A stretch of 64,000 nt of DNA from Seohaeicola zhoushanensis (GTDB lineage Bacteria; Pseudomonadota; Alphaproteobacteria; Rhodobacterales; Rhodobacteraceae), in the NCBI RefSeq assembly GCF_014656415.1, contig NZ_BNCJ01000002.1, positions 278,213-342,212 of the forward strand, in the 5' to 3' direction. A program made the position numbers and the translations under genes. Shown here in pieces: positions 3,042 through 23,607 of the stretch (position 1 is the first letter of the stretch; every line of letters begins with the position of its first letter). A model generated the notes under the pieces. It was not told the origin of the DNA. It saw nothing but the letters and a program-made list of their open reading frames with translations, and made no database searches.

Positions 3042-4361
3042 TCATACCGTGCGCTGTCGCGTCCGAGAAGCCGCCCCAAGGACGAGCGCGAGCAGCAGCA
3101 GGGCGGCGGCGGTGCCGAAGGTTGCCCCAAGCCCGGTGGCCATCGCCTCGGGCGTCGGGCCCGAAGCGGCGGCGAACACCGCGCCCAGAACCGCCGCGCC
3201 GGTGATGAAGCCGAGGTTGCGCGAGAGGTTCAGCAGGCCCGAGACGAGGCCCTTCCGGGCGGGGTCGACCTCGGCCATCACGGCGGTGCTGTTCGCGGCG
3301 AAGAACAGCTGGAACCCCGGCGTCAGCATCATCAGCGCAAGGATATAGCCGGGGGTTCCCAGCAGCGGCGGCAGGCTGGCGAGCGCGATGGTGCCGCCAA
3401 GGCTCACCAGCAGGCCCAGCCGCAGCGTCAGGGCGGGGCCGAGCCGGTCGGTCACGCGCCCCGCCGGAATGCCGCTGAGCGCAGCGGTGGCCGGGCCGAC
3501 GGCCATCACCAGGCCCATCGTCGCCGCGCCGAGGCCGAGCCCCGTGGTCAGGTAGAACGGCCCCACCACCAGCGTCGACATCATCACCGTGGCGACCAGC
3601 GTGCTCATGGCGAGGGCGGCGGCGAGACCCGGCTCGCGCAGCAGCGCGGGCGGCAGCAGCGGCGCGGCGGCGTGCGTCTCGATCCAGAGGAAGGCGACAA
3701 GGCCCAGGGCAGCGGGCAACAGCAGCCAGGGCGCACCCAGCGTGGTGGCCAGCGCATAGGCGGCCAGCGTCAGCCCGAGGGCAAGCGTGCCGGGCAGGTC
3801 GAGCCCGCCACTCCGGCTGGCGGTTTCGCGCGGCAGGCGCAGGGCGAGCGCGAAGGCCAGCACGCCAAGCGGCACCAGCACCAGGAAGACCGCGCGCCAG
3901 CCGAACTCGGCCAGGACCAGCCCGCCCGCCGATGGCCCCAGCGCGGTGCCGAAGGCCGAGACCGAGCCGAGCAGCCCCATCGCACGGCCGGTGCGCTCGG
4001 GCGCCACGATGTCGGGCACGAAGGAGAGCGGCAGCGCCATCAGCACGGCGGCCCCGACACCCTGCGCCGCGCGGGCGGCGATCAGCGCGCCAAAGCCGGG
4101 GGCCAGCGCCGCCGCCAGCGAGGCGACGGCGAAGAGCGCGATGCCGGCCAGCAGCACCTCGCGGCGGCCGAGCACGTCGCCCAGCCGGCCGGCCAGCACG
4201 CTCGCCACCGTGGTGGCCAGCAGATAGGCGAGCACCACCCATTGCGCACCCGCCATCGGCACCGCGAAATCGGCGGCGAAGGCGGGCAGGGCGACGGCGG
4301 CGATGGAGACGCCCAGCGATGCGGAAAGCACGCAGAGCGCGAGGGAGAAAAGGGCGATCAT
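3042..4361 (-). CDS. MFS transporter, drug-efflux type
   Basis: A 439-residue inner-membrane protein with about 12-14 hydrophobic segments. The MFS motif A is visible as GRLGDVLGRREV after the second segment, and a motif-C-like stretch SAFGTALGPSAGG lies near residue 140. This pattern fits drug:H+ antiporters (DHA family). It is transcribed away from a MerR-family gene and its promoter carries the long spacer used by MerR activators, so it is the probable regulatory target. The substrate cannot be read from sequence. The 138 bases between its stop and urtE hold no gene I can support. Confidence 0.88.
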   Translation of the reverse strand: MIALFSLALCVLSASLGVSIAAVALPAFAADFAVPMAGAQWVVLAYLLATTVASVLAGRLGDVLGRREVLLAGIALFAVASLAAALAPGFGALIAARAAQGVGAAVLMALPLSFVPDIVAPERTGRAMGLLGSVSAFGTALGPSAGGLVLAEFGWRAVFLVLVPLGVLAFALALRLPRETASRSGGLDLPGTLALGLTLAAYALATTLGAPWLLLPAALGLVAFLWIETHAAAPLLPPALLREPGLAAALAMSTLVATVMMSTLVVGPFYLTTGLGLGAATMGLVMAVGPATAALSGIPAGRVTDRLGPALTLRLGLLVSLGGTIALASLPPLLGTPGYILALMMLTPGFQLFFAANSTAVMAEVDPARKGLVSGLLNLSRNLGFITGAAVLGAVFAAASGPTPEAMATGLGATFGTAAALLLLALVLGAASRTRQRTV

Positions 4362-19573: not shown

Positions 19574-19734
19574 CAGTCCTGCTCCTCGTGCTTGCCCGCG
19601 GCCACTCCGCCCTCCGCCCGTGCCCGCGCCTGCGCCTTGCGCCGCGCCAGATTCGCCTTGAGCGCCGCCTTCAGCCGTTCGTCGCGGCTCGGTTCGGTTT
19701 TCGCGCCCTTGGTGGGGGTCGGTTTGTCTGCCAT
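19573..19734 (-). CDS. Small basic protein upstream of murA
   Basis: A 53-residue frame, [12 protein letters not shown] to GKHEEQD, very rich in Lys, Arg and Ala and lacking cysteine or membrane segments. The stop codon shares its last base with the murA start (TGATG), so the two are probably translationally coupled. The sequence looks like a disordered, nucleic-acid-binding-like small protein. I do not know a function. The tight coupling is the main support for it being real. Confidence 0.6.
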
Positions 19735-19891
19735 GCACCCTCTCTAACGCAGGGCGCAAAAAGCGTCCAGATTGCCCTTGCGCCCTGCTTCGAATGCGTC
19801 TAATCACCCGCCACGCCGCCAAGGCGCGCCGCCCTCCGGGCCGCGCCGGCGAGGGTCGCACAAGCGGGTCTCGGGGGGCAGACAACAGCGG

Positions 19892-19966
<75 letters not shown>

Positions 19967-20250
19967 TCCAACTCATAGAAAACAAACACTTTCCGGCAAG
20001 AGCAGGAAAGCCCCGCCGCCCGGTCAATCGGATCGGTGCAGGAATGCGCGTCGGCTATTGGCGAGAACCTGGCGAACTTGCCGGGGCAGGGGATTCTGCG
20101 ACGTCAACAGCCCTTCCAGAGCGCGGACACGCCGTGCGCTGCGACCAAACCTTCGAGTTCGGTGCAAGCCAAAGGGAACGGGGAAGGGCAACCCTGATCC
20201 CGCGATGAGATCGAATGGCTGCGCGGGCGGTTCCCGATCCGCTCAGGCGT

Positions 20251-20454
20251 TCAGTGGGCCTCTGCCCGCGGTGCGTGGCGCATTTCGTCTACGCCGATGG
20301 TTGCGTTCTTGAAGTATGAGCGCCGCCCGCACTTCTCGCATCGGACGTAGACAATCGGTCCGTCCGAACCGGAGTCGTTTTCGTATACGGACTGCGAGGT
20401 GGGTATCCACTTGTGCGCGCAGCCATGAAGCAGAAACTGGAACAACCTTATCAT
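20251..20454 (-). CDS. Small phage-like zinc-ribbon protein
   Basis: A 67-residue protein. The N-terminus MIRLFQFLLHGCAHKW is followed by VRCEKCGRRSYF, a Cys/His arrangement (C-x-H then CxxC) typical of small phage-encoded zinc-binding proteins. AAGGAG lies 9 bases upstream of the ATG. It is the last of several tiny minus-strand frames in the patch beside tRNA-Thr. The amber-interrupted frame at 21110-21343 has a comparable H-W/CxxC layout. Function unknown. Confidence 0.65.
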   Translation of the reverse strand: MIRLFQFLLHGCAHKWIPTSQSVYENDSGSDGPIVYVRCEKCGRRSYFKNATIGVDEMRHAPRAEAH

Positions 20455-20494
20455 ACCGTCTGTCTCCTTCGTTGGGGGCGGATTACAAAAGCCT

Positions 20495-20674
20495 TCAATA
20501 CATTTCCGCGCTACCTTCGGGTCTTGCTACTCGCCACCGACGATCGGCCTGTCTAGGCTTCGGATCCGATCGTTGCACCCCGTCGTGGTGGCTTTTGGCT
20601 GCTTGGAAAGTTCGAAAGGTTCCGATTTGTGCACGAGTGAGTTTTCGTTTTGCCGCATTTGGACTATCGGCCAT
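20495..20674 (-). CDS. Possible small hypothetical protein
   Basis: A 59-residue frame starting MADSPNAAKRKLTRAQ, rich in Arg and Lys. Its ATG overlaps the end of the preceding 39-residue membrane protein by 11 bases, which could allow coupling, with GAGG just ahead. I recognise nothing in it. It lies within the small-gene patch and its reading frame may be accidental. Confidence 0.3.
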   Translation of the reverse strand: MADSPNAAKRKLTRAQIGTFRTFQAAKSHHDGVQRSDPKPRQADRRWRVARPEGSAEMY

Positions 20675-20783
20675 CCTCGCCATCGAAAGGATCCACGAAC
20701 CAGGGCAGCAGAATCAGAAAGATGATCCAGGCCGCATAGGCAATTGCTACCCCGCCGAAAACCCACAGGATGATCTCAAGCAT
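20664..20783 (-). CDS. Tiny single-span membrane protein
   Basis: A 39-residue frame: MLEIILWVFGGVAIAY, then AAWIIFLILLPWF, then an acidic tail ending DPFDGEDGR. Almost the whole length is one membrane helix. The ATG overlaps the end of the upstream 105-residue frame, and AAGGCGAG precedes it. Phage operons often contain such peptides (holin- or spanin-like or unassigned), but I cannot assign a role. It is below usual gene-calling length limits. Confidence 0.5.
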   Translation of the reverse strand: MLEIILWVFGGVAIAYAAWIIFLILLPWFVDPFDGEDGR

Positions 20784-21093
20784 GTCTCGCCTTCACGGCT
20801 TTCAGGATTAGCAGCAAGAATGCGTATGCTGGGATTTCGTGGGAGGCCCTGTGTTCAACGCGTCCCCGAGAAGCCCAGAAGACGCCTTTGAAGGCGCGCC
20901 CCCAATTCCACCCAGGCAGCAGTTCGTTGAACAGTGCCTCGGCGTCGTCTACTGCTTGAAGGTTGTCCCGATCGATGATTTCGGAGAACTTGCGCTGGTA
21001 TTCGGAGTGCCCAAAAGCTGCCAAATGCTGCTCGTGAGTTCCTGGGCAGCCTGCGGCCACCGCTTCGCTCAGGGATTCGAAATCAGGCATGAG
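20776..21093 (-). CDS. Hypothetical protein of the tRNA-adjacent patch
   Basis: A 105-residue frame from the ATG at 21093. It begins MPDFESLSEAVAAGCPG, has a middle part HLAAFGHSEYQRKFSEIID, and then a tryptophan-containing stretch NELLPGWNWGRAFKGVFWAS. It ends in a hydrophobic helix (YAFLLLILKAV). No clear ribosome site is seen, so it may depend on upstream translation. I do not recognise the family. Its stop is overlapped by the next tiny gene. Confidence 0.5.
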   Translation of the reverse strand, partial: LMPDFESLSEAVAAGCPGTHEQHLAAFGHSEYQRKFSEIIDRDNLQAVDDAEALFNELLPGWNWGRAFKGVFWASRGRVEHRASHEIPAYAFLLLILKAVKARHA

Positions 21094-21109
21094 GCGTCGT
21101 ACGGTTTGT

Positions 21110-21343
21110 TTATCCACTGGACCGGCGATCCATGATCGTGCGGTCTGGATCCTTTGCAAGCGCGTGGATCTGGTCAGTGGCTCGGGTCGAGATTGCGGGT
21201 TCGCCGGTGGACTGGTTGTGTTCGACCCGCTCGCACACCGAGCAGCGTCGCATGTTCCCGCGTTCGTTTTTGATCCATCGATGCCTGTGGAAGACAAGGA
21301 GGACAGAGCGCTAGATATCGGCGAGAAATTCGGTATTTGTCAT
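21110..21343 (-). pseudogene. Zinc-ribbon-like frame interrupted by an amber codon
   Basis: An AGAGGTGA ribosome site stands about 5 bases before the ATG at 21343. The frame reads MTNTEFLADI and then meets TAG at 21313-21311. The same frame stays open for 66 more codons to TAA at 21110. It encodes VFHRHRWIKNERGNMRRCSV followed by CERVEHN, a His/Trp plus CxxC pattern like the small zinc-ribbon gene at 20251-20454. The coding-like sequence after the stop suggests a nonsense mutation, a sequencing error or readthrough. Reinitiation at the ATG of MRRCSVC is possible but lacks a good ribosome site. Confidence 0.55.
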
Positions 21344-21359
21344 GGAATCACCTCTTTCT

Positions 21360-21414
21360 TTAACTAACCTTTATGTCCGTTAACATGGCAAGTGAAATTA
21401 ACAGGTTGCGTTAA
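21360..21414 (-). promoter_or_regulatory. Repeated TTAAC/GTTAA operator-like sites
   Basis: Just upstream of the first frame of the patch, TTAAC occurs at 21360-21364, the palindrome GTTAAC at 21379-21384, and TTAAC-N7-GTTAA at 21398-21414. The surrounding DNA is much more AT-rich than the rest of the window. Repeated half-sites near a promoter suggest a repressor-controlled phage-type promoter. The regulator is not visible here. Confidence 0.5.
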
Positions 21415-21960
21415 GAAAATTACAAATTCTACCTATAGGCGTAATTTCATGGTTCTCGACCTCCAGGCCGTGTGCTCGCCCACTTCTCGCAATCTCCGTT
21501 GCGGCCTAGTCGGAGGGCGGAAATGTCCATCTGTGAACCTGTTCTCTATGCAAAATGCGGCATTTGGTATTATCGCGACTGCACCCTGAGTTTGACGCAT
21601 GGCAAACCAGTTTGGCCTAACGCAGACACCAAAGAACGGATTGATTGAGAAAACGCCAGGGCTGGGGGTGTCATGGTTTGGGTGTTTTTCAGGAATTCAC
21701 CTGATTTGACATGGCGTCCCACGGGAGAACGAAAACCCTGTCATTGAACCCCGCCGATCCCCCCGCGATGCCCCGCCTTCGGCCAAGGGATCTGAGACGC
21801 CTGCCTCGTGCCGCAGCCCTGCGTGTGGCCGCCCGCGTGCTTTCCGCACCGGCTCAGGATGGCCAGGAGCCCAATTTCCCGATTTTGTGCTAGTATGCCT
21901 GGGTGACAATGGTTGCGGTCGACCTTTCGCGGCGGGCAGCCACAACAGGGGGACGATCCG
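21415..21960. other. Gene-poor interval before the TPR gene
   Basis: About 550 bases without a gene I can support. The left part (to about 21710) is AT-richer and contains the short dyad TCAGG-N6-CCTGA at 21689-21704. The right part is GC-rich and holds short open frames on both strands with arginine-rich, low-complexity translations. GGGGGA before 21961 is the ribosome site of the TPR gene. The GC shift near 21710 may mark the right edge of the acquired patch. Confidence 0.5.
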
Positions 21961-23607
21961 ATGGGGGCGCATTTCGATCTCGGCACCTATTCCCGCAAGG
22001 TCACCGCCGCCAGCGCCGAGGCGCAGGCGGCTTTCGATCGCGGGCTGGTCTGGCTCTATGGCTACAACCACGAAGCGGCGGCGGCGGCCTTCCAGGAGGC
22101 GGCTCAGGCCGATCCCGGCTGCGGCGCCGCGCTCTGGGGATTCGCCTATGCGATCGGCCCCAATTACAACAAGCCCTGGGAATTCTTCGACGCCGACGAG
22201 CGCAAGTCGTCACTGGCCACGGCACATGAGGCGATTGGGGCCGCCAAGACGGCCTCTCCCAGGCTGACGGCGGTGGAGCGCGACCTAATCGCCGCCCTGG
22301 CCGAACGCTATCCGACCGATCCGGGCATCGACGACTATGGCCCGTGGAACGACGCCTTCTCCGAGGCGATGCGCAAGGTCTATGCCGCCCATCCCGACGA
22401 TCTCGACGTTGTGGCCATCTTCGCCGAGGCGCTGATGAACCGCACGCCCTGGCAGCTCTGGGATCTCAAGACGGGCGGCCCCAAGGAGGGCGCTTCGACG
22501 CTCGAGGCGCAGGCGGCGCTGGAGCGCGCCTTCGAGACACTGCCGGGCGCCTGGGACCATCCCGGCCTGCTGCACATGTACATCCACCTGATGGAAATGT
22601 CGCCGACGCCCGAGAAGGCGCTGAAACATGGCGACCGGCTGACCCTGCTGGTGCCCGATTCGGGCCATCTCGTGCATATGGCGACGCATATCGACGTGCT
22701 CTGCGGCGACTACCAGAACGTGGTGGCACGCAACCATGCCGCCGCCGAGATCGACCGGAAATACGAGGCGGAGGCAGGCTCGCAGAACTTCTACACGCTC
22801 TACCGGATCCACAACGTGCACTTCGTATCCTACGGCGCGATGTTCCTCGGCCAGCCCGAGGTCGCGCTGAAGGCCGCCGAGCGGCTGATGGAGATGCTGC
22901 CCGAGGAGGTGGTCCGCTTCATGCCCGAGCTGTTCGAGAGCTTCTACGGCAAGAAGATCCACGTGATGGTGCGCTTCGGCCAGTGGCAGGCGATTCTCGA
23001 CGAACCCTTCCCGAAGGACCGCGACCTCTACCGCTATACAACTGCCGCCATGCACCAGGCGCGGGCCACGGCGCTGGCGAACCTGGGGCGGCACGACGAG
23101 GCAGTGGTGGAACGCGAGCTGGCCGTGAAGGCCCGCGAGAGCATCCCCGAGGACTGGATGGTCTTCAACAATACCGCCAACGACGTGCTGCTGGTCGGCG
23201 AGGCGATGATGGACGGCGAGATCGCCTTCAAGTCGGGCCGCACCGACGAGGGACTCGACCACCTGCGCCGCTCGGTCGAACTGGACGACAACCTGCTCTA
23301 CGACGAGCCCTGGGGCTGGATGCAGCCCGCGCGCCACGCCCTCGGCGCGCTGCTGATGGACGCACGGCTGCTGGACGAGGCCGAGGCGGTCTACCGCGCC
23401 GATCTGGGCCTCGACGACACGCTGGCGCGGCCCTGCCAGCACCCCCGCAACGTCTGGAGCCTGCACGGCCTGCACGAATGCCTGGTGCATCGCGGCGAAC
23501 TGACCGAGGCGCGGCACCTGAAGCTGCTGCTCGACCAGGCCGTCGCCCGCGCCACCGTGCCGATCCGCGCCTCGTGCTACTGCCGCAAATCCGCCAGGGC
23601 GGCGTGA
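21961..23607 (+). CDS. Tetratricopeptide-repeat protein
   Basis: A 548-residue protein without a signal peptide, built of helical TPR-like units. An early unit reads AFDRGLVWLYGYNHEAAAAA and later ones include HQARATALANLGRHDEAVVE and LLDEAEAVYRADLGLDD. The middle contains HPGLLHMYIHLMEMS and SGHLVHMATHIDV, histidine-rich motifs also seen in uncharacterised bacterial TPR proteins of this length. The C-terminus has CYCRKS. TPR domains bind proteins, but the partner is unknown. The ATG at 21961 follows a GGGGGA site. Confidence 0.8.
   Translation: MGAHFDLGTYSRKVTAASAEAQAAFDRGLVWLYGYNHEAAAAAFQEAAQADPGCGAALWGFAYAIGPNYNKPWEFFDADERKSSLATAHEAIGAAKTASPRLTAVERDLIAALAERYPTDPGIDDYGPWNDAFSEAMRKVYAAHPDDLDVVAIFAEALMNRTPWQLWDLKTGGPKEGASTLEAQAALERAFETLPGAWDHPGLLHMYIHLMEMSPTPEKALKHGDRLTLLVPDSGHLVHMATHIDVLCGDYQNVVARNHAAAEIDRKYEAEAGSQNFYTLYRIHNVHFVSYGAMFLGQPEVALKAAERLMEMLPEEVVRFMPELFESFYGKKIHVMVRFGQWQAILDEPFPKDRDLYRYTTAAMHQARATALANLGRHDEAVVERELAVKARESIPEDWMVFNNTANDVLLVGEAMMDGEIAFKSGRTDEGLDHLRRSVELDDNLLYDEPWGWMQPARHALGALLMDARLLDEAEAVYRADLGLDDTLARPCQHPRNVWSLHGLHECLVHRGELTEARHLKLLLDQAVARATVPIRASCYCRKSARAA

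Follow-up and report, generated by a model that had tools for sequence, protein, structure and literature searches.

A probable nonsense-interrupted orphan phage gene in a putative prophage remnant beside tRNA-Thr

Introduction

Genes interrupted by nonsense changes occur in decaying prophages, where small phage-type frames lie by a tRNA gene, the GC content is unlike that of the genome, and one of the frames contains an early stop. A short, well-started frame before a run of genes is also seen in attenuating leader peptides of the trpL type. Phage CxxC proteins of the P0004 type (MIRLFxFLxHGCWHKW...CxxC) are short, with an H-x-W followed by a CxxC. In addition, a case has been made that prokaryotes can read through stops lying in frame (PMC7918605).

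The window analyzed in this study is a stretch of 64,000 nucleotides from Seohaeicola zhoushanensis, in which an initial annotation had pointed to a frame, here named P0001, that is interrupted by an amber codon. Four explanations had been offered for it, namely a nonsense mutation, a sequencing error, suppression-dependent expression, and a leader peptide. Of these, the nonsense mutation fitted best, while suppression and attenuation by a leader gained no support. P0001 is probably an orphan phage gene cut by a nonsense change in a decayed prophage beside tRNA-Thr. Directly observed for this reading were the anatomy of the frame, the composition of the surrounding island, and the membership of the run's last gene in a phage family, and the TAG would be a later change.

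Results

The coordinates and frame originally given for P0001, with its ATG, ten codons, TAG, and 66 following codons, were all right (Table 1). The ten sense codons before the TAG encode the peptide MTNTEFLADI on the minus strand. The minus-strand sequence AGAGGTGATTCC directly precedes ATG 21343, and the strong ribosome site claimed for this start was borne out, as it has eight bases in common with the 16S-complementary sequence and sites of equal length were found at six of the 1,718 ATGs in the window. Another of these six, ATG 26293 on the plus strand, opens a frame of similar shape, in which 11 codons lead up to a stop and 158 open codons come after it, and it lies out of frame within a larger frame. 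An opening of at least 66 codons was observed in 19% of simulated sequences with similar composition, and hence the openness behind the TAG, taken alone, is no evidence of a gene. Decay was not visible in P0001 beyond the TAG. No ATG, GTG, or TTG was found in the P0001 frame from the TAG down to ATG 21253, and a start after the TAG would therefore drop the His/Trp part.

Table 1. Features of the island and of the interrupted frame (positions in the window).
Feature	Position	Strand	Description
tRNA-Thr (GGT)	19892..19966	+	one edge of the island
P0004	20251..20454	-	67-aa CxxC protein; family on 20 viral contigs
P0003	20664..20783	-	39-aa probable membrane frame; overlaps the end of P0002; stop is TAG
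P0002	20776..21090	-	104-aa frame; no relatives found; without clear ribosome site
P0001, interrupted frame	21110..21343	-	ATG 21343, ten codons, TAG 21313-21311, 66 codons, TAA 21112-21110
Ribosome site GAGGTGAT	21346..21353	-	upstream of ATG 21343
Five TTAAC/GTTAA half-sites	21360..21414		operator-like; pattern chosen after viewing
Divergent 41-aa frame	21523..21648	+	ribosome-site-like stretch before start

P0001 lies in an island of lower GC that starts where tRNA-Thr ends (19966) and reaches to about 21900, with a GC content of 46-63% vs 64-72% around it. The island contains four consecutive small frames on the minus strand (P0001, P0002, P0003, and P0004), the last three of which score as coding by codon score. 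P0002 starts 223 bases beyond the TAG and 19 bases past the end of the old P0001 frame. Between the minus-strand run and the 41-aa frame, the five half-sites are packed into 55 bases and resemble a phage repressor operator. Relatives of P0004 were found on 20 viral contigs, some of them near-identical, and in none of 29 candidate stretches of genome contigs; in PHROGs, P0004 had weak matches (best E 0.016) to families of unknown function. Because the P0004 family occurs on these viral contigs, the island probably represents what remains of a prophage; P0004 was the only gene of the island found to belong to a phage family. As for the island DNA itself, no match to phages was obtained, and 194 other genomes contained scraps only, of up to 44 bits.

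An attachment repeat of the tRNA was absent from positions 19700-22100, other matches in the own genome were other tRNAs, and no partial copy of the tRNA-Thr 3' end was seen there. In one genome of the same genus, a contig opens within tRNA-Thr, of which it retains the final 25 bases, and continues into another gene, which we take to be ribonuclease D. In two further relatives, the 3' end of tRNA-Thr was partially matched a second time near the full gene, at a distance of about 20 kb in G035 (loci L141 and L142) and about 3 kb in G009 (locus L143). ARAGORN identified a single tRNA in each of these stretches, and the partial copies possibly fit an integration site. Among the loci that are syntenic through the TPR gene, no tRNA was found in the eight scanned of 14, and thus no empty site was demonstrated.

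The frame behind the TAG had the best codon score of all six frames (-0.346), based on a codon table trained on 16 in-frame genes. This score was matched by 2.2% of simulated open sequences (p 0.022), while the ten codons before the TAG, scored alone, did not appear coding (p 0.108). The motif H.W.{4,25}C..C, which was defined after viewing the sequence, was found in two of the 992 stop-to-stop frames of the window, both in the island and both on the minus strand, and was expected 0.02 times per shuffled island. In loci picked for weak similarity, H-x-W...CxxC occurred out of frame four times in 1,798 frames. The post-TAG frame looks mildly coding and would once have been a gene. Regarding the usual marks of a pseudogene, the TAG stops an otherwise open frame whose coding signals are mild, and no intact homologue across the stop was found, as is possible for an orphan.

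The read-through protein was also modeled from its single sequence with AlphaFold2, giving a mean pLDDT of 73.9. The five models differed, ranging from 52 to 74. A helix of residues 3-20 spans the TAG position, after which the His/Trp part forms a hairpin and the CxxC lies at another helix, and the model slightly strengthens the reading of a gene cut by a nonsense change. Neither a zinc-ribbon nor a treble-clef fold was clearly matched by this single-sequence model: Foldseek returned no matches at E 0.001 or better against PDB and BFVD, and the best VIA structure comparison had a Z of 3.1. The P0001 product may have been a zinc binder.

These signals bear on the possibility that the ten codons form a minigene or leader for which the TAG is the intended end and which may load ribosomes onto the run, with the frame behind open by chance. 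While this would agree with the strong site and start, the operator-like region upstream, the 19% expectation of openness, and a post-TAG part devoid of homologues, it is opposed by the codon score and the motif of the post-TAG frame and by the modeled helix that crosses the TAG. Moreover, P0002 starts 223 bases further down and no hairpin or terminator was detected. An attenuator-like hairpin behind the leader was not found (fold z-score 0.13), the minus strand at P0001 contained no terminator-like site, and Rfam gave no match above cut-off save the tRNA, which leaves attenuation by a leader peptide unsupported. We regard the minigene or leader as unlikely.

Homologues of P0001 were searched for with the 66-residue part. 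Among 101 relatives, this part matched only itself. In 385 genomes of the class, searched with E up to 1, matches were obtained in 165; 29 other loci from these 165 genomes were aligned to the post-TAG part, and no homologue was established among the alignments listed. One of the candidates (L028) has HRW...RRCGEC at identical spacing, but this stretch overlaps a 307-codon frame in a different reading frame and was dismissed as chance. Among plasmids, two Rhizobium records (E 0.7) were dismissed likewise, as they matched only from near the second cysteine onward. No match was found in phages, viral and genome contigs, PDB, Pfam, PHROGs, PADLOC, or NCBIfam. Similarly, P0001, P0002, P0003, and the 41-aa frame had no homologue at loci around P0004 relatives and tRNA-Thr, with a best E of 0.56 in a set of 39 loci and of 0.087 (for P0002) in a set of 20 loci. 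At the DNA level, the 191 bases round the start matched only themselves in the own genome, besides a 16-base scrap, and 23 bases of the start region were absent from all viral contigs searched. A downstream part without homologues, which the initial annotation had named as evidence against its own proposal, is therefore what was found in relatives, class genomes, phages, and viral and genome contigs. This lack says little, because the searches with the neighboring P0002 also returned no homologue, and P0001 may just be an orphan protein.

The resemblance to a neighboring gene that had been proposed for P0001 was found to hold at the level of the motif, as P0001 and P0004 have H-x-W and CxxC in common and little besides. 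It did not extend to the sequences as a whole: BLASTP between the two gave an E of 0.18, and the P0004 family profile found a 2.4-bit domain in P0001 that ranked 14 among P0001 itself and 2,000 shuffles, which is not significant. In one of the 20 viral loci (L145), a second H-x-W...CxxC frame (3829-4068) was observed some 1 kb upstream of the P0004 relative. This frame may be due to chance, as the looser motif used on the viral loci was also met by 11 further frames outside the P0004 family among 3,821.

On the opposite strand, the plus frame 21038-21367, which is antisense to P0001, had a match to the LuxR ligand-binding domain under the threshold (Pfam PF03472, 15.2-15.7 bits, E 0.011-0.015). 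If genuine, P0001 would be antisense noise, with the plus strand retaining 50 residues of a former LuxR-type ligand-binding domain, and the ribosome site and ATG of P0001 would be the antisense of the HGIT codons in this remnant. The score of this frame against the domains of 29 relatives was reached by 11 of 3,000 whole-frame shuffles and by one of 3,000 shuffles of the chosen 50 residues. However, the Pfam cut-off of 23 was not reached, the E over the genome was 0.113, and one such value is unsurprising given that about 11 distinct frames from around P0001 were compared with Pfam. A 10-sequence profile and PDB gave no support, and a match in G006 (E 8e-6) was out of frame within another frame. 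The antisense frame was also only second on codons, though close (-0.413), and it was weakened slightly by a poor model (pLDDT 46.4). Altogether, this explanation appears improbable.

About equally improbable is an intact gene with a base error in the assembly. The assembly is a draft in 78 contigs and the remainder of the frame shows no visible decay, but polishing leaves few single substitutions in a draft.

Readthrough of the TAG, either at a low level or through a suppressor tRNA, would explain the retention of motif and codon character in the post-TAG frame. The suppression that had been proposed found no backing, as a CUA anticodon was present in none of the 40 tRNAs found, a set from which Tyr and Ile were missing. 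TAG also serves as the stop in three of 25 window genes examined, in addition to P0003, and mobile genes are named as likelier pseudogenes in the paper that argues for readthrough (PMC7918605). Readthrough is thus considered very unlikely. A combined scheme, in which the early amber is retained by design, with ribosomes supplied to the run by the ten-codon frame and a small metal-finger protein dosed by rare readthrough, is the least probable of all. Were it conserved and read through, the TAG would represent an unusual case of an amber codon programmed into an early phage gene.

Discussion

The favored reading is that of an orphan phage gene cut by a nonsense change. P0001 would have headed a short series of small phage-type genes on the minus strand, and its original product of about 77 residues may have formed a small zinc-finger-like hairpin. 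A single nonsense change at codon 11 of this dispensable gene would now stop translation after ten residues, within the would-be first helix, and the finger would not be made. P0002 may have relied on P0001, because it begins 19 bases past the end of the latter and has no clear ribosome site. As no homologue was found, an intact ancestor was not demonstrated. The nonsense change, as the best reading, draws on the start, the codon score, the motif, and the model. As it stands, P0001 would be a small broken orphan gene of little significance in a phage remnant. It also calls for caution: in the absence of relatives, several readings are compatible with a frame that starts strongly and stops early, even when the sequence behind the stop is open and contains a short motif.

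Compared with described systems, P0001 shares with trpL-type leaders the short well-started frame before a gene run, whereas it has neither an attenuator-like hairpin nor a regulatory codon run. With the P0004-type phage CxxC proteins it has in common the short length, the H-x-W followed by CxxC, and a place in the same run, while it differs in having no sequence similarity past the motif. Nonsense-interrupted genes of decaying prophages are set apart from P0001 by the intact ancestral copy, which was not found here, and by the remainder of the frame, which shows no visible decay; as in those prophages, however, the locus consists of small phage-type frames by a tRNA gene, with a GC content unlike that of the genome and an early stop in one of them.
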